Below, piece after piece: positions 5,956 through 33,415 of a stretch of 37,832 nt of DNA; position 1 is the first letter of the stretch, and every line of letters begins with the position of its first letter. This DNA comes from a virus, in the IMG/VR virus record IMGVR_UViG_3300020213_000503, positions 1 to 37,832 of that record, one strand, 5' to 3'. The translations under genes were made by a program, and so were the position numbers. The notes beneath the pieces are model-generated. The model saw only the letters and a program-made list of their open reading frames with translations, did not search any database and was not told the origin of the DNA.

Positions 5956-6852
5956 ATGATAAAAATATCCGCAGTTTTAATAGTCCAAAACGAAGAAGCA
6001 CTACTCCCCCGTTGTCTTGAATCAGTAAAAGGTCTTGACGAAATTATAATTGTTGATGGTGGCAGTATAGATAGAACAAAACAAATCGCCTCAGAATATA
6101 CCGATAAAATCTTTGATTTTCCCTGGTGTGATAACTTTGCAAAAAGTAGAAATGAGGCTAAATCCCATGCAACCGGTGATTGGATTCTAAGCATCGATGC
6201 AGATGAAATATTACATGATATTTCAAAAGTCCGGGAAGCGGTAGAACTTGCAGAGCAACGCAATGCTATTGCAGTTAATATTCAACTTCTTGCAGAGGAT
6301 AACGGGCAGAAAACTATTTATCCCCGGTTATTTAAGAACGTTCCTGAGGTTTGGTGGGAAGGTGCAATTCACAATCATTTATCAGTCTTAGGGGAAGATC
6401 TTGGAAATGTAAAAATAACTTATGGTTATTCCCCTGCTCACACTACGGATCCGGATCGCGCTTATCGTATTCTTAAAAAGGAAGTTGAAACAAGACCGGA
6501 TGCATATCGCGAAATGTTTTATCTTGGCCGCGAGCAATGGTACAGAAAAGAATATGAGGATTGTTTAAAAACTCTTGGTAAATATGTTCAAGGCTCAAGA
6601 TTTTTATCTGAAAAAGCAGAAGCGTTTTATATCATGGCCAGGGTTTATTGGGAAATGAAAATGGGAGAAGATGGCCGCGATGCTTGTTTGCAGGCTTTAA
6701 AAATTAATCCCAATTTTCGTGAAGCTGTATTGTTTATGGCAACTCTTTCCGGAGATGGAAAAGGAAATGAGAAGTGGCAGAAAAATGCGGATCAATGGAA
6801 AAAGATGGCTGAAACAGCAGACAATACAGACGTTTTATTTATAAGAGCATGA
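5956..6852 (+). CDS. Family 2 glycosyltransferase (WaaE/SunS-like GT-A)
   Basis: 298 residues. It shows the GT-A start VLIVQNEEALLPRCLESVKG, then EIIIVDGGSIDRT (residues ~30-42) and the metal-binding SIDADEIL (~79-86), followed by WWEGAIHNHL. The C-terminal ~110 residues are helical and repeat-like (YLGREQWYRKEYEDCLKTLGK), a TPR-like arm often fused to this GT2 subgroup. It should transfer a sugar from a nucleotide donor in the cytoplasm. It is the first gene of a surface-sugar cassette and overlaps the next gene by 4 bp. Confidence 0.85.
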   Translation: MIKISAVLIVQNEEALLPRCLESVKGLDEIIIVDGGSIDRTKQIASEYTDKIFDFPWCDNFAKSRNEAKSHATGDWILSIDADEILHDISKVREAVELAEQRNAIAVNIQLLAEDNGQKTIYPRLFKNVPEVWWEGAIHNHLSVLGEDLGNVKITYGYSPAHTTDPDRAYRILKKEVETRPDAYREMFYLGREQWYRKEYEDCLKTLGKYVQGSRFLSEKAEAFYIMARVYWEMKMGEDGRDACLQALKINPNFREAVLFMATLSGDGKGNEKWQKNADQWKKMAETADNTDVLFIRA

Positions 6853-7397
6853 AAATTTGGATTTCACCACATTCAGACGATGAAACGCTATACGGCGCAT
6901 TTACTTTGATGCGTGAAAAACCTCTTGTTGTTATTGTTACCGATAGTTATATTCAGCAAAACCGTGGAGAATCTATAACGCCGCAACAACGTTTTCAAGA
7001 AAGTGTTAATGCTATGAAGATTTTAGGCCTTCCAATTGTACGGTTAGGGATCCGGGATGACATTATTACAGAACTTGCAGTTATTGAGCGCCTTGCCTGG
7101 TTTAAAAACTTTGAAACGGTATATGCTCCGGCTTTGCAAGGTGGGAATCTGGCCCATGATATTATAGCACGGGCCTCCGAAAAGGTCTTTAAATCGAATC
7201 CTAGAGCCAAGTTTATACAGTATTCTACCTACTCTAAGGGTGAATTTTATACGCCAGGCACAAAACAGATTATTCCGGATTCTACAGAAATTGCAATAAA
7301 AAATGAAATGCTTGATTGTTATAAATCACAAATTGAATTACCGGCGACACTTCCGCACTTCGAAGCGGTGAAAGGAAAATCAGAATGGTACATTTAA
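6849..7397 (+). CDS. PIG-L family (LmbE-like) deacetylase
   Basis: 182 residues. The N-terminal ISPHSDDETLYGAF carries the zinc-binding SPHxDDE signature (residues ~5-12), followed by VVIVTD and RFQESVNAMKILGL. The expected later histidine is probably the one in NLAHDIIARAS near residue 103. The family removes acetyl groups from N-acetyl-glucosaminyl compounds, so a role in trimming a sugar made or moved by its neighbours is plausible. Start and stop codons overlap both neighbours, indicating translational coupling. Confidence 0.85.
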   Translation: MKIWISPHSDDETLYGAFTLMREKPLVVIVTDSYIQQNRGESITPQQRFQESVNAMKILGLPIVRLGIRDDIITELAVIERLAWFKNFETVYAPALQGGNLAHDIIARASEKVFKSNPRAKFIQYSTYSKGEFYTPGTKQIIPDSTEIAIKNEMLDCYKSQIELPATLPHFEAVKGKSEWYI

Positions 7398-8062
7398 CAG
7401 TTGGACTTGGAGAAGTAGGATCCGCAATTAAAAATATAGTAGGTGGTGTTTATGTAACTAGAAGCGCCGGGGATTGGGATGGTCGCGAAGTTGACGTTGT
7501 TCATATCTGTACTCCATATACAGAAGAAAAGGCTGCAGACTTTGAGGCAATGATTGAGCATTATAAGAAAAAATCTAAGCTAGTTATTGTTCATTCAAGC
7601 GTGCCGGTAGGAACTTGTGATGCTCTTGACGTTGTTCATTCTCCTATTCGCGGCATTCATCCGGAACTTGAAAAAGGAATCAGAACTTTTGTTAAATATT
7701 TTGGTGGTAAAAGAGCTGCGGAAGCCGCTAAAATCTTTTCGGATCTTGGTCTTAAAACACAAGTATTTTCAGATGCAAAAACAACTGAGGCATTAAAGCT
7801 TTGGGATACTACTCAATACGGTTATCTTATTATGCTTGAAAAAACGATTTATAAATGGTGTAGGGAACACGGAGTAAATTACGAAGATGTTTATATCAAG
7901 GCAAATAAAGATTATAACGAAGGATATGTAGAGCTTGGCCGGCCGGATGTTGTAAGGCCCTGGTTAAAACATATGCCCGGACCAATTGGCGGCCATTGTA
8001 TAATTCCAAACAGTAAATTATTAGGTTCTGAGTTTGAAATACCGGAGGATATAGATGGATAA
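7385..8062 (+). CDS. UDP-glucose/GDP-mannose dehydrogenase-like protein (short form)
   Basis: 225 residues, about half the length of a full nucleotide-sugar dehydrogenase. The N-terminus has the NAD-binding glycine motif GLGEVG (residues 7-12). HSSVPVGTCD (~72-81) and a region with ALKLWDTTQYGYLIMLEK resemble the dehydrogenase first and central domains. GPIGGHCIIPN (~200) matches the family's GGHCIP motif. The C-terminal UDP-binding domain is absent, and so are several catalytic residues that I would expect. Either it is a minimal enzyme or it acts on a non-nucleotide substrate. It overlaps the deacetylase gene by 13 bp. Confidence 0.7.
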   Translation: MVHLTVGLGEVGSAIKNIVGGVYVTRSAGDWDGREVDVVHICTPYTEEKAADFEAMIEHYKKKSKLVIVHSSVPVGTCDALDVVHSPIRGIHPELEKGIRTFVKYFGGKRAAEAAKIFSDLGLKTQVFSDAKTTEALKLWDTTQYGYLIMLEKTIYKWCREHGVNYEDVYIKANKDYNEGYVELGRPDVVRPWLKHMPGPIGGHCIIPNSKLLGSEFEIPEDIDG

Positions 8063-8111
8063 AAAAGTATATTTAGGAGCAGGAAAAGATCATCAAGCAG
8101 GCTATGTTTAG
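8055..8111 (+). pseudogene. Stump of a SAM-dependent methyltransferase gene
   Basis: Eighteen codons overlap the end of the dehydrogenase-like gene and stop at TAG 8109-8111. The peptide (KVYLGAGKDHQAGYV) strongly resembles the first strand and SAM-binding glycine loop of methyltransferases that start KLHLGCGKxYxxGYVNVD. It ends exactly where the body of the enzyme should begin. I infer an in-frame start left behind by a deletion that joined it to the next gene, 6 nt downstream. It could instead be a coincidental short frame. Confidence 0.45.
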
Positions 8112-8117
8112 GAAAGT

Positions 8118-8912
8118 ATGAAAAAAGTATTTGTTCTTACACAATTTGGGAAACCTCACGAGTGGACACAGAAATATTTTGAGAATATTAAGCGCTTGGG
8201 TCAATACGGTTGGTATTGGAAGATCTTTACTCCAAACAAATTTGAGAACGTTCCTTCAAACGTTGAAATAATCCCTATGACAATTGAGGAGTTTAATACG
8301 CTTATCGAAAAGAAAGTAGGCGTAAATCCTATGAATTTCATTACTGAAAAGGGTGTACCGGATAAAGCGGTAAGTGATTTTTACGTTGCAACCGGCGTTA
8401 TCTTCGAAGATTACCTTAAGGGTTATGATTTTTGGGGAATAACTAATTGGGACGTAGTTTTTGGTAGGCTTGATAATTATCTTCCGGATGAAATGCTTTC
8501 TGAGCTTGATGTATTTTCTGATGATGTAGGTATTATTAATGGAGTTTTCAGCCTGTTTAGAAATATTCCTAAAGTTAATAATCTTTTTAGAGAAATTCCG
8601 GGCATTGAAAATATGCTTACAGAACATAAACTTTTTGGAATAGATGAGTATTATTTAATTGATCCGTTAAAAAAGGCGGCAAAGAATGAAGCGCTTACCT
8701 ATATACATCCTCAATATTATCATCTTCACAGCTACGATAGGCTTGCACATCACGTTCCGGTCCCACAGCTTGAAATGCAACCGGACGGATCTTTGTGGGA
8801 GAAGTTTTGGGATGTTGCGCCGCCAATTGGTTATATTAATTTTCCAAAAGGGTATATTGCAAAAGAGATTATGTATTTTCATTTCAGTTATACTAAAAAG
8901 TGGCCTTTATGA
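8118..8912 (+). CDS. DUF6625-like putative glycosyltransferase
   Basis: 264 residues. The sequence follows the DUF6625 pattern found in capsule and LPS loci: EIIPMTIEEFNTLI, then AVSDFYVATGVIFEDYLKGYDFWG and NWDVVFGRLDNYLPDEML, and VFSLFRNIPKVNNLF. In relatives the FWG is followed by a D-x-D metal site; here that stretch reads FWGITNWDVVFG, so the first acidic residue seems replaced by Asn. The Shine-Dalgarno AGGAAAG lies just upstream of the ATG. Its stop overlaps the next start by 4 bp. It probably modifies a surface sugar. Confidence 0.65.
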   Translation: MKKVFVLTQFGKPHEWTQKYFENIKRLGQYGWYWKIFTPNKFENVPSNVEIIPMTIEEFNTLIEKKVGVNPMNFITEKGVPDKAVSDFYVATGVIFEDYLKGYDFWGITNWDVVFGRLDNYLPDEMLSELDVFSDDVGIINGVFSLFRNIPKVNNLFREIPGIENMLTEHKLFGIDEYYLIDPLKKAAKNEALTYIHPQYYHLHSYDRLAHHVPVPQLEMQPDGSLWEKFWDVAPPIGYINFPKGYIAKEIMYFHFSYTKKWPL

Positions 8913-9622
8913 AAGTAGCAATCATAGGAAAAAATGGGTTTATAGGATCAGCTCTTGCGAGAGCTTTTATTGCGCGTGGTTATGAAGTAACTTCTTTTCC
9001 TACTCCGGATATTAAGATCTTATTTCATTTTGGATCCCCGGTTCATCCGCCGTTTGAGCAAAATCCGGATTATCATATGCAGGAAATTCTTTCAAGCTTT
9101 ATGTATTTACTTCCTTATTGCCGTGATAACAATATTAAATTCGTTTATCCTTCAAGCGCGCTTGTATATGAGAAAGATACAATGTTTGCAAAGTCTAAAA
9201 AGATAATGGAGATGTATGCTTCTTGTTATCCGGATACTTTAGGGCTTAGGATTTTTCCGGTTTATGGTCCGGGGGAAAATAGAACCGCGATTGCTCAATG
9301 GTGTGAAGCAATGAAAAAAGGCGAGCAGCCTGTTATTTATGGGGATGGTACTCAAGAGCGTGATTTTATTTTTATTGGAGATGTTGTTACCCAAACAATA
9401 CAGCTTCTATCAGATAAAAAAACAGGGGTACATGATGTAGGGGCCGGCAATCCGGTGGCCTTTAACGCGATCGTAGAGGCAATCAACAGGGCGCTTGGAA
9501 CAAGTATCAAGCCAAAATACATAGATCAGCCTCAAGGATACTCAAAAGGAATTGTTTGTCAAAATCCCGGAAAGATTGATTTTTCCATAGAGGAAGGCGT
9601 TAGGAGGATGTTAAATGTTTGA
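8909..9622 (+). CDS. NAD-dependent epimerase/dehydratase-like protein (extended SDR)
   Basis: 237 residues from the ATG in the ATGA overlap (an upstream in-frame ATG at 8900 lies inside the previous gene). GKNGFIG (residues 7-13) is the dinucleotide-binding motif. FVYPSSALVYEKD carries the usual serine region, then RIFPVYGPGE and DFIFIGDVV follow as in sugar-nucleotide epimerases. The usual YxxxK pair appears as FAKSK (about residues 93-97), with Phe in place of the catalytic Tyr. The protein is shorter than the typical ~310 residues. Activity may be altered or lost. Confidence 0.75.
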   Translation: MKVAIIGKNGFIGSALARAFIARGYEVTSFPTPDIKILFHFGSPVHPPFEQNPDYHMQEILSSFMYLLPYCRDNNIKFVYPSSALVYEKDTMFAKSKKIMEMYASCYPDTLGLRIFPVYGPGENRTAIAQWCEAMKKGEQPVIYGDGTQERDFIFIGDVVTQTIQLLSDKKTGVHDVGAGNPVAFNAIVEAINRALGTSIKPKYIDQPQGYSKGIVCQNPGKIDFSIEEGVRRMLNV

Positions 9623-10160
9623 TTTTGAAAAAGAATATTGGAATGGTAGATATAAAAACGGAAATAATTCCGGATACGGTTCTTACGGTGAGCAATTAAT
9701 TAAGAAAATAGACTGGTTATCTTCTCTTGATATTAATTCAATTTCAGAAATTGGTTGCGGTGATATGAATTTTGCTCAAGCATTACTTAGACGTTATCCA
9801 AAAGCTTCTTACAATGGGCAGGATATTTCAGAATTTATCATTGAAGAAAACAGGAAGAAGTTTCCCGGTCTTAATTTTGTAAACAAAGTAGATAATTTGC
9901 CGGTTGCAGATCTTCTATTATGCGTTGATGTTCTTTTCCATATTATTCAGGATTCAGACGTTGAAGCGGTCTTAAAACAGATTGAGGCTAAATGGAGTAA
10001 CTATCTTGCGATTACTGCATACGAAAGAGATGAGGAGATGGGAGGCCATGTTAGGATACGTAAATTTGACTACAAGAGGTTCGGAGAACCGATTATAAGG
10101 CAAGTTGTGGAGGAAGATGGGGATTTGTATTTCTACCTCTTTAAAAAGGATTTGATTTAA
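9615..10160 (+). CDS. Class I SAM-dependent methyltransferase
   Basis: 181 residues. Motif I is SEIGCGDMNFAQALL (about 43-57), followed by the acidic strand end YNGQDISEFIIEENRKKF and motif IV-like LLLCVDVLFHI. The compact Rossmann domain lacks an obvious added target domain. It overlaps the SDR gene by 8 bp and closes the cassette's coupled series. O-methylation of a sugar is the natural guess from context, but the substrate is not visible in sequence. Confidence 0.8.
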   Translation: MFDFEKEYWNGRYKNGNNSGYGSYGEQLIKKIDWLSSLDINSISEIGCGDMNFAQALLRRYPKASYNGQDISEFIIEENRKKFPGLNFVNKVDNLPVADLLLCVDVLFHIIQDSDVEAVLKQIEAKWSNYLAITAYERDEEMGGHVRIRKFDYKRFGEPIIRQVVEEDGDLYFYLFKKDLI

Positions 10161-10180
10161 TATCAGTTATATGACATAAT
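10152..10180 (+). promoter_or_regulatory. Extended -10 promoter for the HNH gene
   Basis: TGACATAAT (hexamer 10175-10180) with TTGATT (10152-10157) 17 bp upstream. The ATG at 10187 begins 6 nt after the hexamer, so transcription is expected to start at or next to the start codon (leaderless mRNA). Confidence 0.6.
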
Positions 10181-10186
10181 TATATT

Positions 10187-10576
10187 ATGTCAGGAACTTT
10201 GATAGGAGCAAGGAAACATTGGTCTGAAGGATTACTAGAAAGATTTAATAAAAGGATTAATAAAACTGATTATTGTTGGATCTGGATAGGAAAATCTACT
10301 ACGGGAAAATCGCATGGAGAGTATGGTACTTTTTGGGATGGAAACAGGATTGTTCTGGCTCATCGTTTTAGTTTAGAGCAATCACTAGGTAGGGAACTTA
10401 AAAAAGGCATGAAAGTATTGCATCATTGCGATAATTCAATATGTGTGCGACCGGATCATCTTTACGAAGGAACTCAGGGGGATAATATGAAAGATGCTTA
10501 TAAAAGAAATAGGAGAAGTGGAAAAGAACAAAACAAAATGCTTATGAAAGCTCGTTTTGATAAACTTGGTTATTAA
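10187..10576 (+). CDS. HNH endonuclease (homing-type)
   Basis: 129 residues. The core is VLHHCDNSICVRPDHLYEGT (about residues 83-102), with the two His residues, Asn and His of the HNH beta-beta-alpha metal fold, followed by DNMKDAYKRNRRSG. The N-terminal TDYCWIWIGKSTTGKSHGEYG is typical of phage HNH homing enzymes. It has its own promoter and splits the methyltransferase from the next transferase gene. I see no flanking intron, so it is likely a free-standing selfish gene. CCGG occurs only once in it. Confidence 0.85.
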   Translation: MSGTLIGARKHWSEGLLERFNKRINKTDYCWIWIGKSTTGKSHGEYGTFWDGNRIVLAHRFSLEQSLGRELKKGMKVLHHCDNSICVRPDHLYEGTQGDNMKDAYKRNRRSGKEQNKMLMKARFDKLGY

Positions 10577-15079: not shown

Positions 15080-15090
15080 CGGAAAAACCG
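15080..15090 (+). promoter_or_regulatory. 5' mini-hairpin, AAAAA loop (copy C)
   Basis: CGG-AAAAA-CCG, identical in sequence to copies D (5941) and E (34413), directly followed by a terminator stem as in copies A and B. Confidence 0.6.
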
Positions 15091-15126
15091 AGCGCATTCT
15101 TGCAGTAGCAAGGGTGTGCTTTTTTT
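15091..15126 (+). terminator. Intrinsic terminator in the third leader
   Basis: A 13-bp uninterrupted stem (15091-15103 with 15108-15120, including G-T pairs) closes a 4-nt loop and ends in seven T residues (15120-15126). It is 11 nt before the ATG at 15138 and downstream of the promoter at 15049, the strongest of the leader terminators. Confidence 0.85.
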
Positions 15127-15137
15127 GTAAATAAAAT

Positions 15138-16469
15138 ATGGCAACATACTCACCGGAATCATTAAAAATAACAGCTGCAACAACAGGCGGAAAATTTCAG
15201 CAAGGGGCCTGGTATTCCGGCCGTCAATTTTGGAATGGAACCTTATCTGATCCCGGGACCATTCATCCTGAATCAAATCAGCAAGGGGCAGGAAAAGCAG
15301 TAAGCGCAGAAGTTATCGCGCAAACAAGTCCCGGAAACGTTGCTTATATTAATAAAGAACGAGCGAATGTTGGACTTGCTCCGGCTCCTCAAACTACTCA
15401 GCAAGTTACATCTCTCTTGAATGATTATCAATCCGGGCTTTTTGAAGGTAGCGGTCCTGAAACACGTGGAGTACAAACAGCCTCAGAGATTGCAGCAGAT
15501 CTTAAATCCGGCGGATTATTACCAGGCGGTGCGCCTCCTACTCCCCCATCCTTAGTTGAGCAATATGGCGCGCTTCGTCAAACAGCCGGAGTTGATGCAA
15601 TTCAAGGCTCAATTACGGATCTTAAGGGACAGCAAGATGCAATTGCTTCTCAACTTCAAGTAACAAAGACTGCAGAAAAAGGAAAACCGGTTGCACAAAA
15701 CGTTATTGAAGGCCGCGTATCCCAAGAGCAACAAACTGCCCAGGATCAATATGATTTTATAGGTAGACAGTTAGGCAGAAAACAAGAGGAATTAAATTCT
15801 GCTTTGACGAATATTCAAATGATAATGCAGTTTTCTCAAACTGATTATCAGAATGCTTCAACTGCTTATAATACACAGTTCGATCATGCTATAAGTACAA
15901 TTAATTTAATCCGGGGAATTCAAAACGATCAAAAGACAGATATTCAAAGAGCGCAAGATAATGCCCGGGCAAATGCTCAGATCATGGTTAATGCTATTAA
16001 AGACGGGAATCTTGATATTAATTCCCTGGATCCTGCCTCTCAAGCTCAACTTAATAAGCTTGAAGTACAAGCAGGGCTTCCAATCGGGCTTTTTCAATCA
16101 CTTCGAATGGATCCAAAAGCAAACGTTCTATTTACTAGTTCAAATAATGGAATAACTCAAGTTGGTATTAGGAATCCGGACGGATCTGTAAGTGTGCAAA
16201 GTTATGGAACGGCAACCGGCGGCGGAAGTGATGCAAAGGTTGGAAGTCCAGAATATCAAGCGACTGCCAGGAGTAACATAGTGCAAGGAATGGCTCAGGC
16301 TGCAAATTCATATGGAAACGTAAGTCCTCAAGTATGGGCTGCCGGATTGCAGGCATGGATTTCTGATACAGGAAAAGACAGACGATCATTTATTGATGCT
16401 TTCCGAGATTATGCTGATACTAACAGAGGGGATTTTGATAAAGTTTATTTTGATCGGGAAAAATATTAG
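15138..16469 (+). CDS. Virion-associated coiled-coil protein
   Basis: 443 residues. The N-terminal ~150 residues are Gly/Pro/Gln rich (FQQGAWYSGRQFWNGTLSDP, GNVAYINKERANVGLAP). Residues ~160-290 form a long Gln/Ala-rich helix or coiled coil. The rest is mixed, with VWAAGLQAWISDTGKDRRSF. No transmembrane segment or enzyme motif. It is co-transcribed with the giant polyvalent gene 12 bp downstream, so both may be inner or ejected virion proteins. Family not recognised. Confidence 0.6.
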   Translation: MATYSPESLKITAATTGGKFQQGAWYSGRQFWNGTLSDPGTIHPESNQQGAGKAVSAEVIAQTSPGNVAYINKERANVGLAPAPQTTQQVTSLLNDYQSGLFEGSGPETRGVQTASEIAADLKSGGLLPGGAPPTPPSLVEQYGALRQTAGVDAIQGSITDLKGQQDAIASQLQVTKTAEKGKPVAQNVIEGRVSQEQQTAQDQYDFIGRQLGRKQEELNSALTNIQMIMQFSQTDYQNASTAYNTQFDHAISTINLIRGIQNDQKTDIQRAQDNARANAQIMVNAIKDGNLDINSLDPASQAQLNKLEVQAGLPIGLFQSLRMDPKANVLFTSSNNGITQVGIRNPDGSVSVQSYGTATGGGSDAKVGSPEYQATARSNIVQGMAQAANSYGNVSPQVWAAGLQAWISDTGKDRRSFIDAFRDYADTNRGDFDKVYFDREKY

Positions 16470-16481
16470 GAGTAAATATGT

Positions 16482-19400
16482 ATGAGCCTATCAAGCGATT
16501 TTTACGAAGAACAAAGAAAAAAGAAAAAACCTTCTCAAGTAGCCGCAGATTCTCCTAGCGGTTCTGAGACTGCATCTCAAAGCTTTTTAAATACTGCAAA
16601 AAGTGGTGGATATAAAACAACTACAACGCCTTCTACTGCAAAACCTCAACCGGTTGAAGTTGCAAAGCCAAAAACTCCTAGTTTAATTGACAGGGTAAAA
16701 GGCGCGGTTGATTCTGTTGCTAAAGCTTTTCAGCCTCAAAAAATCATAGCTCCAATTCCGGAGAAAGATATTATTAAAACGGTCCCAAAAGAAAAAACTT
16801 TTTTAGAAAAGACTTTTGAAACTAATCAGCAATTTGGTGGCCCGGCAAATCCTATTGCAATTGCAATTAATACGATAAACATTATTGATGCCGCGTATAA
16901 AGGTTTGGATCAATTTATAGTAGGATCCCAGGATGCAATTTATAAATCTGCGTTAATTGAGGGAACAGATAAGGAAACTACCCGGGATCAAATTATACTT
17001 TCTATAGCAAAACCTCTTGCAGTTGCCCAAAAGAAAATTATTGAGCCGGTTCTTTTCAATAAGGCTACGGCTCCCATAATGAAGGGGTTTGCAGAAACTT
17101 ATCTTGGCGGATCAAAGCAGGTAATGGCTACTCTTGAAACAAAAATTCAGCCTACAAACAATCCACTTATGCAAGGCTATAATACGGTTGGGGAATTGAC
17201 CGGGGCAGTAATAGCATTTCTGGCAGGTGGGCAAGTTATAAAAGGCTTACAGCTTGGTAAGGCTACCCTTCCGGTTCTTTTCGGGACCATAGGACAAACT
17301 TCCGCAGCTCCGGATACTACGGTTATGCAGCGCCTTGAGAAATTACCGGTTGATGTAGTTGCCGGATGGTTGCTTTCAAAAGTTCCGGCCGCAAAAAAGC
17401 TTTTAAGTCCACAAGCATTAAAACAGGCAGGAATTGCCGCCGGAATATTAGGAGGTCAATCTTTAATTAATAGTTTAATTGTAGGTTTACCAAAAGAAAA
17501 AGCAGTTGAGGCCGCAGTAAAGATGGCAATAATTGCCGGGCTTTTCCATATTGGCGGAACTGCAACCGGGCTTTTCACGAATAAATTATTAACCAGTAAA
17601 TATGGCAGCGGAAAAATTGAATTAACTCCGGAACAGGCAAGAGTACAAATGAATGCTACCGATCTTTCAAAACCCGAAGCAGTTAAGGCTAGAAACGTAC
17701 TTGAAAAAGCTACCCTACAGGCTGAAAGAGAGGGTAAAAACTTATTGATCGATATAAACGTTACAGAAAAAAGCGCAGTAGCAAAATTATTTAATGCTAA
17801 AACTCCTCAAGGCCGCGCATTTACAATAGAACTTGTTGAGGCAAAACAAATAAAACTTATCGGTGAAGAAGGCGCGCCTTCAAAACCGGGTGCTCCCGTT
17901 CCTAAACCGGTTCCGGCTCCGGTAAGACAAACTGATGTGCCACCGGAGAATCTACCACCCGTAATTGCAAAAGAATTTGCTAAAAGAGAAGCTGAAAAGT
18001 CGGGGGACGCACCAACTACTATTCCTCAAGAACTTCAACCATTAGTAGAAGAAGCCAGGAAGTATAAGAGTGCGGAGGAGTTATTAAGAAATCAATTTGG
18101 TGATGTATTAACGCCAGTAAAACCAGTTGGTGATTTATGGAAAAGTAAAGACAATACAATTTTTGTAGAATCAAAACGCCCAGGAATGATAAACTGGTTA
18201 AGACAAAAAAAGAATGTAATTGAATCTGCCGATGAAGCTGGAAATAATATAATTAGAGTAGTAGTTAAAAAGGATTTAATCTCCACCCAAGCTACAGGAG
18301 GAGTAAAGCCAGTAGGAGAACCAATAACCGTTAAGGATACAGACGAGCTTTTAACATATATTGATCGCCAGGGATATAGAACTCCGGAACAGATTGCAAC
18401 GCTTAAAGCAGACATTATTAAAAATGGAATTAAATATCCGATTGAATTAATTGATAACGGGGATGGAACTTTCGAAATAAATGATGGTACTCACAGGATT
18501 CAGATTGCAAAAGATCTAGGAATTAAAGAATTGCCGGTTAAAATTGTTAAGACAAAAGGGAAAGTTGCACAACAACCAGTATTTCAGGAGTTTAAGATTG
18601 GTGATGTTCTTGATCCACAAGGAAATACTAATATGGTTGGTAAGGTAACAATAAGAGAAATAACAGGAAATACATTAAAGTTTGTTGATTCAAAAGGAAC
18701 TGAATTTGCTGGTATGCAACGCTCACTTGTTAGGGATCTTGTTAAGGGAAATAGTTGGAAACGTGTTCCAGTTAGTGATACCACTCCCCCACCGTCTAAA
18801 GAGGTCCCAAAGAAGCCCTCTCAGGCACAAAAAAAACAAGAGGGGATCGGTAGGGTAGGGGAGCCTATTATTAAATCTTTTGATAAAAAAGGCCGGGAAA
18901 TATCATCTGAGAAGAAAGGATCTTTCAGCACAAAAGGTGCTAAGGCAGCACAAGCCATATTCGTTGAGAAAATTGCTAAAATTGGTATTACCGCAAACAG
19001 CCAGGCGGAATTAATCGCTAAGGTTGAACCGTTTATTGATGAATCAATTGCAAACGCCGGCAATGATAAAGAAGTTTTAAGAGGACTTAGGACCGCGCTT
19101 AATAAAGAGATGTTTGGATATATTGGTTATTCCGGAAATTATAAAGCCGATTATGCAACACTCCGGACAATGATGGATTCTCCGGACATTGGTGATTACT
19201 TAGGAATTCTCGAAACTAAAATTGCAGAGATAGATAATATTTTAACAACCGGTGACGTTAGTTATTCTTCTTCGAAAGCTTCTATTGGTGATTACGCAGA
19301 GTTGCCAAATAGAACAACTGAAATTAAAGATGTGCCGGCAGTTGAATTTCCTGAAATGGTAAAGATTGCAAAAACATTGATGGGACAATATCCGATTGTT

Positions 19401-22400
19401 AGAACGCCGCGGTTTAGACCTTCACTTGGTGGTAGGCCAGGCGGAGTTTTCTTTGCAACACAAAACGGAAAGATAATTTTAAATCCTGAAATATTTAAAG
19501 ACCCTGTTCAAGCTGCAAAAACCTTAGCGCATGAATTAGGCCATTTAGCAGATTATCTTCCGGATAAAACATTGAGCCGGGGAAATTTACTAGGGCGTAT
19601 TGCTTCACTTAATAAGTACATGAAAACAATGCTTAGGGAATTTCCGGGATCTGAGGGCGAACTTTTAACAACAAAAGAAAGAGCAAAGATTAAAAGAGCT
19701 GCAGAAAAAGAAGGAAAAACTAATTATGAAATAATAACAAAAGAAATTGAAGTAGGAACAGAGCCTACAAATCCCGAGGAGATTCTATCTATATGGAGAG
19801 ATGCAACTGTCGGAATTAAGAATAAAGAGCTTCTAGCGTATATACAGGGCCTTTCCGATGCACAAAAAAAAGAGATTGCAATCAACGCCATGCGTGGCAA
19901 GATCCCGGAATGGGTAAATTTTGTTCATTCGATCAAGGAAACAATTACTCAAAAAGTCCTTAAAAATTCTCCTTCTGATATTCGAAAGATATATCAGCGC
20001 ATGGTTAAGGAAGAAATTGTTAAACGCCACTTCTTTGATCTTTTGACAATTAAAAGAGAGCTGCAAGTCTTATCTAATAAATGGAGGCCTGTAGATTTAA
20101 ACCTTGCTCCGGAGGGATACTTGACATACAGAAAAGATCCGGCCGAGCTTTACGCTGATGCAATCTCAGTTCTATTTAATGATCCGGTCCTACTAAAAGA
20201 AGAAGCTCCTACGTTCTGGAAAGCATTTTTTAATTACTTGGATGTAAAACCCGAGGTTAAGGATGCCCTATTCTCTACTTGGGATCTTCTTAATAAAGGT
20301 GAGGAAGCGGTTTTTCAATCAAGACAAGCTGACGTTGAGCAAATGTTTGACAATTCAGAGCAGCAATTTACAGTTAAGAATTTAGAAAAACAAAAACAAA
20401 AAACAAATTTTATCTATACTCTTAAGCTTCTTTTTGACAGCAAGAATACACCGCTAAAAAGAAAAGTAAATATTGCCAGGAAAAAAGGGAGTTTAATTGA
20501 CAGTAATCTTGATCCGGTTTTTGCATACGAAGGCTTAAGTTATATGGATGGTAAGCTTGAAAATCTTGTTCAACAGAATTATCAGCCTCTCTTTGAGAAT
20601 GCACAAAAAATATCTGATGATGGTTGGACAAAGCTTGGATCTATTCTTTTATACGAGCGCTCTTTGAATGAACGCGGCGAGTTGGCAAACCCTCTTGGAT
20701 ATAGTCCTAAGACCGCACAGGATCAACTAGCAGGCCTTGAAAAGTCAATGACCCCCCAGGACTGGAAAGCAATTCAAGAGGTCCTTAAATCGTTTAGAGA
20801 AGTGACACAGAAGATTGTAAAGATGGCAGATGAGGGAGAATTTTATCCCCCGGATCTTTTAAAGCAAATGAAAGCAAACGATTCTTATGCAACGTATCAG
20901 GTAATTGATTATCTTGATACTTATATTTCAGCTCATGTTAATAAATCTATCGGGACCTTAAAAGAAATTGCCAATCCTGCAACCTCAACCGTTATGAAAG
21001 GAATTTCAGTTGTTAAAGCAATTGAAAGAAATAATGCTAAAAAGATTGCAGTCAACTTTTTTAAAGCTAATTTCCCGGATGAAATTACCCCGGCTAAAAG
21101 TGTTTTTAAAGGAAAACGTATGGAGTTTATAGAATCAAAGGATATGGATCTTGCAATGGTTAAGCTCATTGAAAAAGGAAAAATGACAGCATACTACGTT
21201 GAAAAAGATCTTGCGGATAATATTAATAACACTTCAAACGAAACCATTATAAAAACTGCAAAAATAATGAGAGTATTAACAGCATCGGGAATTTACAGGC
21301 CTCTTTTTACCAGTCTTAATTTAGGATTTTCAACATTTAACTTTATCCGCGATTTTCAACGTTATTGGACCAACGTTCCGGATTATACCTTAGCTCAAGC
21401 TATAACTTCATTTCCGAGAGCTTTATATCGTTATGGGCAGGCAATACCGGCTGCAAAAGCAAGAGCAACAAATAAACTTCATCCGACAATTACAGCTATG
21501 AAAGAATTGAATATAATCGGCGCTTCTTATAACGGCGTATTCGAACACCAGGAAGTAAGTCCTGATGATATGCAGATTGAGCGCATTATGAAACAGTACG
21601 GGCTTTTGGATAAAACTAAGAAACGCCGGATATTTACTCCGATATATAACGTTTTAGATGGAATTGAAGCGTTCAATAATTTTATTGAAACGTTACCAAA
21701 GGTTGCAGGTTATAACGAGATTAAAGGCAGCGGCCGGATGACTGATCTTGAAATGGCAGATTTTATTCGTACTAAGGTTGGATCCCCTAACTTTAGATCA
21801 AAGGGGCAGCTGACACCTATAACAAATTCTATTCTTCTTTTCTCAAATGCCATAAAGGAAGGTATTAAATCTGATATACAGGTAGCGGCCGGGAAAGCAG
21901 GAAAACAATCAGCCGGCGGATTTTGGTGGAAAACAACTGTTTCAACATTTTTACCTACTATGCTTATGTTTGCTGCCGGCGCAGGACTTCTTGGCAAATG
22001 GCTTGAGGATCGCTTTAAAGATATTTCAGAGTATGACAAAACAAACTTTACTATTATTCCAACCGGAGTTGATAAGAACGGTAAAACAACTTATATAAGA
22101 GTTCCCCGGGCTGAAACTCAAAGATTCGTGGGAGGACTTTTTTATAAAATAATGAGAACCGCGGAGCGCAAGGATCTTAAGCTTGAAGATGTTTTTGATG
22201 TGTTTGATTATGGAGCCGGACAGCTGCCTAATATAACGCCTCTATGGTCCGGAGGCGGCGCTTTACTTTCCTATCTTTCCGGAAATAATCCATATGATTC
22301 TTTCCGTAATAGAAATATTATTCCGGAAATTGAATTTAATGCCGGCTTTAAGGATTCATTGCCTATATTTGTTGACTGGTTTGTTAAGAATCAAGGGGCA

Positions 22401-22937
22401 GGAATCATACTCCCCAGCTATGTAGACAAAAATCCTACTGATCTTCAAAAAAAACTAGCACTCCCTTTCATTTCAAACGTTGTGGGTAGATGGATAAAAG
22501 TTTCAGATTACGGTCAAACAGAAGCGAACAGAAGAATCACGGATAAAATTGAAAGTGAAGCTGCTAAGAAAACTCTTGATACAAGACAAAAGCTTGATGA
22601 TGCAATAAAAGAATATAAGGGTGGTACGCAATCTTATACAAGAAGAAAGCAAATTGAAAGGCAGCTTGTAAAAGATGTTGTTGGAACAGTAAGAACCTCA
22701 GATGAGAAAAGCGCAAAAACAAGGTTAATTAAAAAGTTTGAGATGGGACTTCTCCGGGGATCTGCGGATCCATTAACTGATTCCATTATTGATGCTAATA
22801 CAAATGGTGCAAAGGTTGAGCTGATCTATGCCGCGAAAGATAAACTTGGGTCCGGATATAAAGACTACATAAGGGAATTGAAACGCAAGAATGTTATTTC
22901 AGATGATGTTACGGCAAAGCTAAGAAGGAAAAAATGA
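16482..22937 (+). CDS. Giant polyvalent virion protein (ParB-like, HExxH peptidase, LPD38-like)
   Basis: 2,151 residues, the largest gene. AGGAG lies about 9 nt before the ATG. The visible order is a low-complexity Lys/Pro start; hydrophobic glycine-rich segments (~235-365); and a ParB/sulfiredoxin-like domain (~610-695) with YRTPEQIATLKADI and INDGTHRIQIAKDLG. A zinc-peptidase-like LAHELGHLADYLP follows at ~1014-1026, then long helical regions. A C-terminal part (~1600-1890) with FIRDFQRYW and a hydrophobic TFLPTMLMFAAGAGLLGKW resembles large polyvalent protein domain LPD38. Such proteins are packaged in virions and injected with the DNA. Domain names are by motif resemblance only. Parts around 18,010-18,370 and 18,545-18,890 lack CCGG and may be newer insertions. 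Confidence 0.72.
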   Translation: MSLSSDFYEEQRKKKKPSQVAADSPSGSETASQSFLNTAKSGGYKTTTTPSTAKPQPVEVAKPKTPSLIDRVKGAVDSVAKAFQPQKIIAPIPEKDIIKTVPKEKTFLEKTFETNQQFGGPANPIAIAINTINIIDAAYKGLDQFIVGSQDAIYKSALIEGTDKETTRDQIILSIAKPLAVAQKKIIEPVLFNKATAPIMKGFAETYLGGSKQVMATLETKIQPTNNPLMQGYNTVGELTGAVIAFLAGGQVIKGLQLGKATLPVLFGTIGQTSAAPDTTVMQRLEKLPVDVVAGWLLSKVPAAKKLLSPQALKQAGIAAGILGGQSLINSLIVGLPKEKAVEAAVKMAIIAGLFHIGGTATGLFTNKLLTSKYGSGKIELTPEQARVQMNATDLSKPEAVKARNVLEKATLQAEREGKNLLIDINVTEKSAVAKLFNAKTPQGRAFTIELVEAKQIKLIGEEGAPSKPGAPVPKPVPAPVRQTDVPPENLPPVIAKEFAKREAEKSGDAPTTIPQELQPLVEEARKYKSAEELLRNQFGDVLTPVKPVGDLWKSKDNTIFVESKRPGMINWLRQKKNVIESADEAGNNIIRVVVKKDLISTQATGGVKPVGEPITVKDTDELLTYIDRQGYRTPEQIATLKADIIKNGIKYPIELIDNGDGTFEINDGTHRIQIAKDLGIKELPVKIVKTKGKVAQQPVFQEFKIGDVLDPQGNTNMVGKVTIREITGNTLKFVDSKGTEFAGMQRSLVRDLVKGNSWKRVPVSDTTPPPSKEVPKKPSQAQKKQEGIGRVGEPIIKSFDKKGREISSEKKGSFSTKGAKAAQAIFVEKIAKIGITANSQAELIAKVEPFIDESIANAGNDKEVLRGLRTALNKEMFGYIGYSGNYKADYATLRTMMDSPDIGDYLGILETKIAEIDNILTTGDVSYSSSKASIGDYAELPNRTTEIKDVPAVEFPEMVKIAKTLMGQYPIVRTPRFRPSLGGRPGGVFFATQNGKIILNPEIFKDPVQAAKTLAHELGHLADYLPDKTLSRGNLLGRIASLNKYMKTMLREFPGSEGELLTTKERAKIKRAAEKEGKTNYEIITKEIEVGTEPTNPEEILSIWRDATVGIKNKELLAYIQGLSDAQKKEIAINAMRGKIPEWVNFVHSIKETITQKVLKNSPSDIRKIYQRMVKEEIVKRHFFDLLTIKRELQVLSNKWRPVDLNLAPEGYLTYRKDPAELYADAISVLFNDPVLLKEEAPTFWKAFFNYLDVKPEVKDALFSTWDLLNKGEEAVFQSRQADVEQMFDNSEQQFTVKNLEKQKQKTNFIYTLKLLFDSKNTPLKRKVNIARKKGSLIDSNLDPVFAYEGLSYMDGKLENLVQQNYQPLFENAQKISDDGWTKLGSILLYERSLNERGELANPLGYSPKTAQDQLAGLEKSMTPQDWKAIQEVLKSFREVTQKIVKMADEGEFYPPDLLKQMKANDSYATYQVIDYLDTYISAHVNKSIGTLKEIANPATSTVMKGISVVKAIERNNAKKIAVNFFKANFPDEITPAKSVFKGKRMEFIESKDMDLAMVKLIEKGKMTAYYVEKDLADNINNTSNETIIKTAKIMRVLTASGIYRPLFTSLNLGFSTFNFIRDFQRYWTNVPDYTLAQAITSFPRALYRYGQAIPAAKARATNKLHPTITAMKELNIIGASYNGVFEHQEVSPDDMQIERIMKQYGLLDKTKKRRIFTPIYNVLDGIEAFNNFIETLPKVAGYNEIKGSGRMTDLEMADFIRTKVGSPNFRSKGQLTPITNSILLFSNAIKEGIKSDIQVAAGKAGKQSAGGFWWKTTVSTFLPTMLMFAAGAGLLGKWLEDRFKDISEYDKTNFTIIPTGVDKNGKTTYIRVPRAETQRFVGGLFYKIMRTAERKDLKLEDVFDVFDYGAGQLPNITPLWSGGGALLSYLSGNNPYDSFRNRNIIPEIEFNAGFKDSLPIFVDWFVKNQGAGIILPSYVDKNPTDLQKKLALPFISNVVGRWIKVSDYGQTEANRRITDKIESEAAKKTLDTRQKLDDAIKEYKGGTQSYTRRKQIERQLVKDVVGTVRTSDEKSAKTRLIKKFEMGLLRGSADPLTDSIIDANTNGAKVELIYAAKDKLGSGYKDYIRELKRKNVISDDVTAKLRRKK

Positions 22938-29509: not shown

Positions 29510-29692
29510 GAAAGCTTTGAGAACGAGGGCGGTCTGATAGAGGGTAACCTGCCTGACTTATTCAAGGAGTTTAAGCCTATTAGAAGAAAAGATAACTTAC
29601 TTGCTAGGGTTAAAGAGGTTTGGAGAAGAAGAAAGGAGATTATGAAAATAGCAGATACAGAAAAGATATATGAAAATACTAAGTTTATTTGA
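29510..29692 (+). pseudogene. Gene remnant upstream of the methyltransferase
   Basis: An open frame runs from 29510 to TGA 29690-29692 with no start codon before 29642. It reads NEGGLIEGNLPDLFKEFKPI then KDNLLARVKEVWRRRKE, typical of a charged protein end, and then continues through a near-copy of the first nine codons of the gene at 32008 (MKIADTEKI against MKIADIEKI). I read it as a truncated 3' fragment brought in with the cassette. A short peptide from ATG 29642 could still be translated. A tiny frame at 29482 (12 codons) is probably noise. Confidence 0.5.
29630..29668 (+). repeat. 39-bp direct repeat, left copy
   Basis: The 39 nt starting AGAAAGGAGATTATGAAAAT recur at 31996-32034 with a single C/T difference. 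The repeat covers a Shine-Dalgarno site and the first codons of the gene at 32008. The left copy lies 2 nt before the methyltransferase ATG. Confidence 0.9.
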
Positions 29693-30884
29693 CGGAATAA
29701 GTTGTGCCAGAGTAGCCCTAGAACGAGCAGGAATACCTGTAGAAGCGTATTACGCCAGTGAAGTAGATAAGTACGCCATGCAAATCTCAGCAAAGAACTA
29801 CCCTGACATTGTGCAGTTGGGGAGTGTTACAAAAGTTGGGGTTTATTCTAGGACTGATGGGTGCTTGATTACAACACCAGACGACCAAGAGTATCATAAT
29901 ATTGACCTCCTGATAGGTGGCTCGCCTTGCCAAGACCTCTCAATAGCCAAGAAAGACCGTAAGGGATTAGACGGCGACCGTTCGGGTTTGTTCTGGGAGT
30001 ATGTGCGTATCTTAAAAGAAGTAAAACCAAAGTATTTTATTCTTGAAAATGTGAACTCAATGCCAAAAGAAGCAAAGGCAATCATTACAGAAGCTCTCGG
30101 AGTAGAGCCGATAATGATAAATGCCGCACTTGTTTCGGCACAGAACAGGAAACGATTATTTTGGACTAATATTCCCAATGTTATCCAGCCAGAAGATAGA
30201 GGGATATTGCTGAGAGATATTTTAGAACAAGATGTTGATGAGAAGTATTCTGTAAATGTTTCAGAAAAATATGGGCTAAAAGGATTATGTGAAGACAAGG
30301 CAAAATCATTGATAGCAAGTTCTTATAAAGGATATGGAAACGATGGTGTTTTAATAATTAGAGTTGGTCAAATCGGCAAAGGAGGACAAGGAGACCGTAT
30401 CTACTCACCAGAGGGCAAATCAGTAGGGCTATCAGCTCTCGGTGGTGGTAGGGGTGCAAAGACGGGGTTGTATGCAGTAGCACCAAATGGAAAGAGAATA
30501 GTGATAGAAAAAGAGGGACTGTTAGTTTTAGGAGAAAGACGGACAGAACTTGGTAAACAGTCAAGAAAAGAAATCAGAGAATCTACAGGGAGGGATAGCA
30601 CGTTAAGGAGTAAAGACCACAAAGAGTATTTTGCTATAGATGGAATAAAAGCGAACTGTATTACTACGGGACTGGGAATGGAGGGAACTATTGTAGAAGA
30701 TTACCAAATCCGCAAACTAACCCCTACAGAATGCGAAAGACTACAATCACTTCCTGACAATTACACAGAGGGAGTAAGCAACAGCCAGCGGTATAAAATG
30801 CTCGGTAACGCTTTTAATGTAGATGTGGTGGCACATATCCTCTCCTCCCTAGACAAACCATTATCAGAGAAGGAGAGCAAATAA
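29670..30884 (+). CDS. DNA (cytosine-5)-methyltransferase
   Basis: 404 residues with the C5-methyltransferase motifs in order: I (LSLFDGIS, 4-11), IV with the catalytic Cys (GGSPCQDLS, ~84-92), VI (LENVNSMP, ~125-132), VIII (QNRKRLFW, ~158-165), IX (RKLTPTECERLQSLPDNYTE, ~348) and X (YKMLGNAFNVDV, ~375). The target-recognition region lies between about 190 and 340. It methylates a cytosine in duplex DNA; the site cannot be read from sequence. No partner restriction gene is visible, so a protective role against host restriction is likely. Base composition differs from its surroundings. The Shine-Dalgarno site is poor. Confidence 0.9.
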   Translation: MKILSLFDGISCARVALERAGIPVEAYYASEVDKYAMQISAKNYPDIVQLGSVTKVGVYSRTDGCLITTPDDQEYHNIDLLIGGSPCQDLSIAKKDRKGLDGDRSGLFWEYVRILKEVKPKYFILENVNSMPKEAKAIITEALGVEPIMINAALVSAQNRKRLFWTNIPNVIQPEDRGILLRDILEQDVDEKYSVNVSEKYGLKGLCEDKAKSLIASSYKGYGNDGVLIIRVGQIGKGGQGDRIYSPEGKSVGLSALGGGRGAKTGLYAVAPNGKRIVIEKEGLLVLGERRTELGKQSRKEIRESTGRDSTLRSKDHKEYFAIDGIKANCITTGLGMEGTIVEDYQIRKLTPTECERLQSLPDNYTEGVSNSQRYKMLGNAFNVDVVAHILSSLDKPLSEKESK

Positions 30885-32257: not shown

Positions 32258-33415
32258 ATGAAGAAGATAAATAAGAAATTATACAGTTGGGCATCAATTA
32301 TTGATGAAATTACAATGCAACAGGCTATTATTGCAAGTAAAATGCCTTTTATCTTTCCTCATATTGCTTTAATGCCGGATGCTCATTTAGGGGCCGGGGC
32401 AACGGTTGGTTCTGTAATTCCTACTTTGGGAGCGATAATTCCGGCTGCTGTTGGAGTTGATATAGGTTGTGGAATGATAGCAGTTAAAACTCAATTCTTG
32501 GTAAAAGATATTAAGGGAAACCTAGCAGATTTAAGGCATTCTATTGAAAGAGGCATACCGCTTAGCGCAGGTCAATATAACCGGGACTTAACGGATACTG
32601 CAAAAGCTAGGGTTGATTTATTAAAGTCAAAAGCCAAAAAAGATTATTCTCAATTTGTTGGAAATTGGGAGCTTCATTTAGGTTCTTTGGGTTCCGGGAA
32701 TCATTTTATAGAAGTTAGCCACGATGAAGAATATAATGTTTGGTTATTTTTACATTCCGGATCAAGGGGTATAGGAAATAAAATAGCGCAGTTTCATATA
32801 AAGAAAGCTCAAGAACTATGTGAAAAGTTTTTTGTTCTTTTAGAAGATAAGGATTTAGCATACTTACCTCAATCAACTCCGGAATTTGGGGATTATATTT
32901 CAGATTTGAATTGGGCGCAGGAATTCGCTTTGCTGAACAGGGAAGAAATGATGGATCGTGTTATTAAAGATTTTTCTCATTTTATGGGAAGCGAAATTAA
33001 AGAATTGTTGAGAATAAATACTCATCACAATTTTACTCAAAAAGAACACCATTTCGGTAAAGACGTTTGGTTGTCAAGGAAAGGCGCTATAAGCGCTAAG
33101 AAGGGGCAATATGGATTAATACCGGGTTCAATGGGAACAGATAGTTATGTTGTTATGGGTAAGGGTAATCCTATGTCTTTTAATTCTTCTCCCCACGGGG
33201 CTGGTAGAAATTTCTCAAGAAGCCATGCTAGGAAAACGTTTAACATTGAGCAGTTAAGGGAGGCTATGAAGGGTATTGAGTATAATGATTCAGATGCTTT
33301 TTTAGATGAAATTCCGCAAGCTTATAAAGATATTAAGGTTGTTATAAAAGACAGCGCGGATTTAATAGATGTAGTTTATCAATTAAATCAATTGATAAAT
33401 ATTAAAGGAGATTAA
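32258..33415 (+). CDS. rtcB: RNA-splicing ligase RtcB family
   Basis: 385 residues, in the range of shorter RtcB proteins. Conserved metal and catalytic motifs are DAHLGAGATVGSVIPT (~40-55), GVDIGCGM with the metal Cys (~66-73), LGSGNHFIEV (~144), LHSGSRGIGNKIAQFHI (~165), NTHHNF (~251) and the catalytic-His motif HGAGRNFSR (~313). RtcB joins 2',3'-cyclic phosphate and 5'-OH RNA ends using GTP. In a phage it may repair tRNAs cut by host anticodon nucleases. GGAG precedes the ATG. CCGG reappears inside this gene, so it lies outside the imported cassette. No archease gene is visible beside it. Confidence 0.93.
   Translation: MKKINKKLYSWASIIDEITMQQAIIASKMPFIFPHIALMPDAHLGAGATVGSVIPTLGAIIPAAVGVDIGCGMIAVKTQFLVKDIKGNLADLRHSIERGIPLSAGQYNRDLTDTAKARVDLLKSKAKKDYSQFVGNWELHLGSLGSGNHFIEVSHDEEYNVWLFLHSGSRGIGNKIAQFHIKKAQELCEKFFVLLEDKDLAYLPQSTPEFGDYISDLNWAQEFALLNREEMMDRVIKDFSHFMGSEIKELLRINTHHNFTQKEHHFGKDVWLSRKGAISAKKGQYGLIPGSMGTDSYVVMGKGNPMSFNSSPHGAGRNFSRSHARKTFNIEQLREAMKGIEYNDSDAFLDEIPQAYKDIKVVIKDSADLIDVVYQLNQLINIKGD

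Follow-up and report, generated by a model that had tools for sequence, protein, structure and literature searches.

Phage-type polyvalent proteins in which a zincin metallopeptidase (MPTase) is combined with LPD domains were described by Iyer et al. in 2017, and such proteins are thought to be injected by phages along with their DNA (PMC5512222). Fusions of the MPTase with ParB and LPDs have been described among them, and phage P1 DdrB, which contains ParB and MPTase, is an example in which processing takes place before packaging (PMC5512222). The MPTases are known in a form with HExxH and an Asp three residues on and in an HExxxH variant, and the structure reported for them is that of lethal factor (PMC5512222). 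Among experimentally studied proteins the nearest parallel, by layout only, appears to be the virion RNA polymerase (vRNAP) of phage N4, which consists of an N-terminal domain with membrane helices, a payload, a C1 part with HExxH, and a helical C2 part of ~1,100 residues (PMC12633501). According to the same preprint, it is ejected and regulated by its own C-terminal domain (CTD) (PMC12633501). Here we analysed a 2,151-residue protein, referred to below as the giant, which is encoded in the IMG/VR virus record IMGVR_UViG_3300020213_000503 (37,832 bases; the whole of this stretch is called the window) and is probably a further member of the polyvalent class.

The giant resembles the proteins of Iyer et al. 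in being very large, in joining several unrelated domains (ParB/Srx-like, zincin, and LPD38-like helical, where at least two in one large polypeptide mark the class), in its location among the phage late (virion) genes, in the window as well as in relatives, and in the HExxHxxD form of its zincin. It differs from theirs in that Pfam does not assign its ParB/Srx-like domain to the DdrB type, and a new feature is that the MPTase and the LPD38-like part travel as one module of ~1,150 residues while the front is exchanged. We consider it fairly probable that the giant is a phage-type polyvalent protein which is packed into the virion and enters the cell with the DNA, with the rear acting as a chassis and the front as a payload. 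A preliminary description of the window, made from the sequence alone, had noted a giant open reading frame (ORF) with ParB-like, HExxH, and LPD38-like parts; the ORF check and profile searches confirmed this observation. The assignment of all three domains holds, as does that of the protein to the polyvalent type; other parts of that interpretation are only partly supported.

A contiguous rear module with varied fronts

Residues ~930–2120 of the giant constitute a single contiguous module made up of the zincin and the helical LPD38-like part. A single-sequence search recovered one metagenomic relative (L002) and a 2,329-residue protein of Pelagibacter phage Baldr, and a three-sequence profile search recovered 79 IMG/VR loci and five genome contigs. 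Among these relatives, the homology starts at residues ~919–955 in those whose contig is intact at this point, and it extends toward the end. The search patterns of this first scan held part of the HExxH motif, and the HExxH conservation derived from it was set aside as biased. In the replacement scan, only the C-terminal 371-residue region (A8) was used, giving 80 loci, five of which are truncated at the 5′ end. With both scans pooled, the rear module is found in ~145 distinct viral contigs.

The core is 966–1499 residues long (median 1154), whereas the front ranges from 467 to 2,872 residues, about sixfold. An N6-methyltransferase (Eco57I) with SNF2 forms the front in L004, L006/L104, L107, L111, L119, and L086. 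Close relatives of the giant have this pair in the front position, a content which we take to be DarB-like, after DarB of phage P1. Other fronts consist of SLT, MutS_I, and DprA_WH (L051), RadC with a DEAD helicase (L019), DdrB-ParB (L082), or radical SAM (L054), and sliding-clamp-like (DNA pol III beta) domains lie ahead of the zincin module in L065, L137, and L158, on three separate branches. On a tree built from 89 cores, the window groups with L004, L006, L102, L103, L007, and L110 with full support; here at least three supported changes are needed for the methyltransferase-SNF2 payload and three for the clamp. The varied payloads, the lengths of core and front, and the repeated changes on the core tree therefore show that the rear stays stable while its fronts are swapped. 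A strictly conserved, contiguous rear that combines with different fronts in more than 100 viral sequences makes the polyvalent-protein idea testable.

Active site of the zincin-like domain

In an alignment of 39 cores, H1017, E1018, G1020, H1021, E1193, L1194, W1201, and E1222 are invariant. Among the relatives from the motif-free scan, H1017, E1018, and E1222 are kept in 75 of 75 sequences and H1021 and D1024 in 74 of 75, a count that takes in the window's own sequence and omits one gapped row. The sole exception at H1021 is L172, which carries HELGQ (HExxQ). The HExxH zinc-peptidase motif of the preliminary description lies at residues 1017–1021, and 74 of the 75 sequences retrieved with only the C-terminus retain it. 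We propose that zinc is bound by H1017, H1021, and E1222, with the geometry deduced from sequence; the AELYADA segment around E1222 fits what we take to be the gluzincin ExxxD pattern. Because of the conservation of H1017, E1018, and E1222 (75/75) and of H1021 (74/75), the protease is probably active.

An AlphaFold model of residues 935–2129 was obtained with a predicted local distance difference test score (pLDDT) of 81.5 and a predicted template modelling score (pTM) of 0.69. Residues 954–1261 of the model align best with lethal factor (4dv8, Z 8.3, 3.8 Å, 141 residues); the top of the fold list is taken up by seven lethal factor chains, and the first unrelated entry below them reaches a Z of 6.4. 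As Z is modest, the predicted zincin fold of residues ~954–1261 is accepted on fold and motif together.

The helical LPD38-like part

The match of the giant to Pfam LPD38 (PF18857), with E 0.015–0.021 and 15.3–15.8 bits, lies below the cut-off of 27 bits, and PF18857 is matched by 8 of the 39 family cores (best E 5e-5). When the core model was compared with viral models (BFVD), 77 matches were found at E ≤ 0.001 (best 7e-42), including podophage PTXU04 gp25 and many proteins named large polyvalent protein or LPD38 (LPD38-named, E 1e-16 and 5e-15). When the PDB was searched by fold, no match to the complete core was confident, and the helical part matched nothing. N4 vRNAP structures are present in the PDB sequence set, but chains of more than 3,000 residues were not aligned in this comparison, and their absence from the list is uninformative. 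The sub-cut-off match, the matching cores, and the similarity in fold to LPD38-annotated phage proteins uphold the LPD38-like assignment made at the outset, as a likeness of predicted fold and not as Pfam membership.

The front and its ParB/Srx-like domain

No relative shares residues 1–~915 as a unit, either in the family comparison or in a search with the N-terminus only. The latter returned zero relatives, and a two-sequence N-terminal profile retrieved only the contig of L144 itself. Different pieces of the N-terminus match different relatives (L144, L111, and L101). For residues 49–441, the sole match is the distant relative L144 (27%, E 6e-27), and the clearer hydrophobic stretches of the giant are at residues 235–253, 318–336, and 341–366. 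The preliminary description had placed a hydrophobic part at the C-terminus, which is not notably hydrophobic and has one borderline stretch (1820–1838). Residues 700–762 share 73–75% identity with L111 (E 6e-27), against only 41% for the adjoining core, and in L111, too, this module sits directly ahead of the zincin.

Between these pieces, PHROG ParB-like families match residues 632–696 (best E 5e-7 and 1e-5), NCBIfam parB_part matches residues 629–692 (E 0.0019), and Pfam ParB_N matches residues 634–691 under its cut-off (E 0.058). The excised segment matched KorB (E 0.001), SbnI (E 0.026), and also Noc and sulfiredoxin chains in the PDB. Because these matches all belong to one superfamily, the predicted ParB/Srx-superfamily fold of residues ~629–701 is secure. 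No Pfam match to DdrB-like ParB (PF18763) was found in the giant; the relative L082 has one (E 4.6e-36). The PHROG, NCBIfam, and PDB matches back the ParB-like assignment, and profile comparison, which the preliminary description had proposed as a check, supports the ParB-like and LPD38-like parts with Pfam scores below cut-off. Of its "DNA-processing-like" domain, the ParB/Srx fold stands; the processing role is not settled, since kinases, sulfiredoxins, and CTP-binding proteins belong to this superfamily as well, and nuclease residues were not identified.

Gene position and relatives in known phages

The giant gene lies among late genes, with order and strand matching those of its relatives. 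Sequence searches of the annotated phage collection turned up a single relative, in Baldr (EXVC032P; host Pelagibacter), which makes this phage a ready test bed. Its 2,329-residue hypothetical protein is homologous along the entire core (hhalign E 5e-148) and also contains the HExxH motif and the third Glu, but it differs in an unrelated N-terminus, an identity of 23%, and a front with no Pfam domain found; an SLT motif suspected by eye in this front was dropped, as Pfam found none. Escherichia phage PTXU04 gp25 (L099:22690-29283, annotated as hypothetical protein) is also a giant following late structural genes, with a homologous helical part (A4 against gp25, hhalign E 2e-10), but its motif is HExxxH (RHEIIVH) and its zincin part is not aligned by sequence.

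The gene order in Baldr is tail tubular A, tail tubular B, 147 aa, 60 aa, 607 aa, giant, and tail fibre. In T7 it is gp11-gp12-gp13-gp14-gp15-gp16-gp17, and in N4, along the transcribed strand, gp54-gp53-gp52 (16.5 kDa)-gp51 (66 kDa)-gp50 vRNAP. The place of the Baldr giant among virion genes parallels those of T7 gp16 and N4 gp50 in their own genomes. T7 gp16 is the largest protein, is encoded by the last internal-protein gene of its genome, and is ejected, but has no zincin. N4 gp50 is an ejected giant with a C-terminal HExxH and helical subdomain, a front payload, and upstream 16.5-kDa and 66-kDa virion genes; it differs in that the payload is an RNA polymerase. An hhalign comparison of the core with the N4 vRNAP C-terminal region gave P 0.083, which does not establish homology, with an alignment that is collinear over ~1670–1815. 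P1 DarB and DdrB are likened by domain content, not by sequence.

Two related contigs, L041 and L043, encode a head-tail connector of the T7 type, scoring above cut-off, together with a tail tubular B like that of Baldr, so that at least this branch is podoviral. The capsid protein of the window belongs to PHROG 1357 and is 32% identical to the capsid protein of podovirus Y3 (labelled N4-gp56 family). As only 6 of 13 records tested have PHROG 1357, the giant family probably spans more than one capsid type. Tail_tube (PF17212) gave zero matches anywhere, including the controls, and is hence uninformative.

Proposed role of the giant and alternatives

In the explanation that we favour, the rear module (930–2120) would be a chassis whose helical LPD38-like part serves packaging and ejection. 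The zincin, with H1017, H1021, and E1222 as zinc ligands and E1018 as the base, would cut the giant itself and thereby release the domains of the front, either as the virion is assembled or once the cell has been entered. The front (1–915) would be a payload acting on entry; its hydrophobic helices may insert in the membrane, and its ParB/Srx-like domain stands where close relatives have the N6-methyltransferase and SNF2 helicase. The gene order is consistent with injection, as is the presence of relatives in podoviruses. Directly observed are the order of the domains, the conserved active site, the exchange of fronts, and the place of the gene; packaging, injection, self-cleavage, and payload action are inferred. 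Several points weigh against this explanation. Virion proteomics for any family member was looked for and none was found; no T7-like connector was found in the window, and the tail type of its phage is not established. HMMER found no similarity of the family to the N4 vRNAP CTD and none to T7 gp16, for which hhalign gave P 0.11 over 44 columns. In addition, a protease conserved in all members could cut another protein rather than itself.

As an alternative, the giant could be a structural protein of virion assembly that never leaves the cell in which phages are made; its zincin would then act on scaffold, capsid, or internal proteins as prohead proteases do, and nothing would be injected. The late-gene location and the strictly kept active site would suit such a role, which we nevertheless judge unlikely: SNF2, N6-methyltransferase, SLT, clamp, and RadC cassettes make little sense for capsid maturation, and they correspond in type to the domains of injected proteins that act in anti-restriction and entry (PMC5512222). 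A second alternative is a tape measure protein with added enzyme domains, long and helical with hydrophobic stretches, that sets the tail length; this would suit the largest gene in the window and its mostly helical product. That reading seems very improbable given the full-length relative in Baldr, which is of podovirus type with tail tubular A and B, the contigs with a T7-like connector, and a core of near-constant length behind a front that varies sixfold.

The HExxH domain might instead be only a scaffold or a structural zinc-binding element, with function residing in the helical part. The N4 vRNAP CTD has HExxH, yet the preprint gives the CTD a regulatory role (PMC12633501), and L172 carries HExxQ. 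The invariance of H, E, H, and the third Glu in 74–75 of 75 otherwise diverged sequences, together with a conserved general base, E1018, that zinc binding alone would not need, makes a purely structural domain improbable. Returning to the self-cleaving injected polyvalent protein, we regard as doubtful the broader idea that short-tailed phages in general use the zincin and helical module as a self-cleaving ejection chassis, with N4 vRNAP as a divergent case that has an RNA polymerase payload. If true, free choice of payload would let such phages bring many different enzymes into the cell on entry.

Features of the locus and neighbouring genes

Table 1. Features of the giant gene and its surroundings in the window.
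Feature	Position	Strand	Basis
Terminator-like hairpin, 14 pairs then T run, just ahead of the two-gene unit	15090..15121	+	Hairpin search
443-residue, mostly helical partner gene	15138..16469	+	Own family directly upstream of the giant in 28/121 loci
AGGAG ribosome-binding site, 9 nt before the ATG of the giant gene	16468..16472	+	Sequence
2,151-residue polyvalent protein, 238.5 kDa, pI 9.4	16482..22937	+	ORF translation
N-terminal region, residues 49–441, three hydrophobic stretches	16626..17804	+	L144 match, hydrophobicity
ParB/Srx-superfamily-like domain, residues ~629–701, motif DGTHR	18366..18584	+	Profile matches; 35% match in L101
~63-residue module, residues 700–762	18579..18767	+	Match to L111
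Conserved C-terminal module, residues 935–2129 (family alignment and AlphaFold)	19284..22868	+	Family alignment
Zincin-like metallopeptidase domain, residues ~954–1261	19341..20264	+	AlphaFold model, VIA-align Z 8.3 to 4dv8
HExxH zinc motif AHELGHLADYLP, H1017-E-L-G-H1021, then D1024	19530..19544	+	Sequence, family alignment
E1222, proposed third zinc ligand (AELYADA)	20145..20147	+	Invariant in 39/39 and 75/75 aligned sequences
Mostly helical C-terminal part, residues ~1262–2120	20265..22841	+	AlphaFold secondary structure, BFVD matches
LPD38-like stretch, residues 1842–1949	22005..22328	+	Pfam PF18857 sub-threshold match

The giant ORF takes up 17.1% of the window, in agreement with the earlier figure of over 17%, and at its own base composition the chance of 2,151 stop-free codons is ~10^-70. 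A search of a plasmid collection with the giant protein gave no plasmid matches. The record is probably incomplete, because a frame runs past the 3′ end and end repeats were looked for and none found.

The giant gene follows the 443-residue partner gene on the same strand after 12 nt, and these features, together with the strong terminator-like hairpin just before the pair, make it likely that the two are co-transcribed. The preliminary description had the giant transcribed with a virion protein; co-transcription is likely, but the partner has the position of a virion protein without a virion-protein match. In 121 loci, the gene that immediately precedes the giant encodes a median of 434 aa and is separated from the giant by a median of 2 nt; its product falls between 300 and 750 aa in 104 of these loci. 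The partner showed no similarity to T7 gp15, N4 gp51, or Baldr gp19, and its AlphaFold model (pLDDT 52.8) was too poor for use. Its first ~70 residues (AWYSGRQFWNGTLSDPGTIHPESNQQGAGKAVS included; 15138-15330) are 58–60% kept in the partners of L005 and L006, with the remainder more diverged, and this conserved start is possibly a docking peptide.

Elsewhere in the window, a C-5 cytosine DNA methyltransferase is encoded at 29670-30884 (Pfam E 1.7e-46) and an RtcB-like tRNA splicing ligase at 32258-33415 (PHROG E 2.5e-140). No tRNA gene was found in the ~38-kb contig, and the ligase is perhaps a repair enzyme against an anticodon-cutting defence. A cassette comprising a glycosyltransferase, a nucleotide-sugar epimerase, a methyltransferase, and an HNH endonuclease lies between structural genes at 5956-10576, and a collagen-like protein of 393 aa at 3619-4800 matches tail fibre families.

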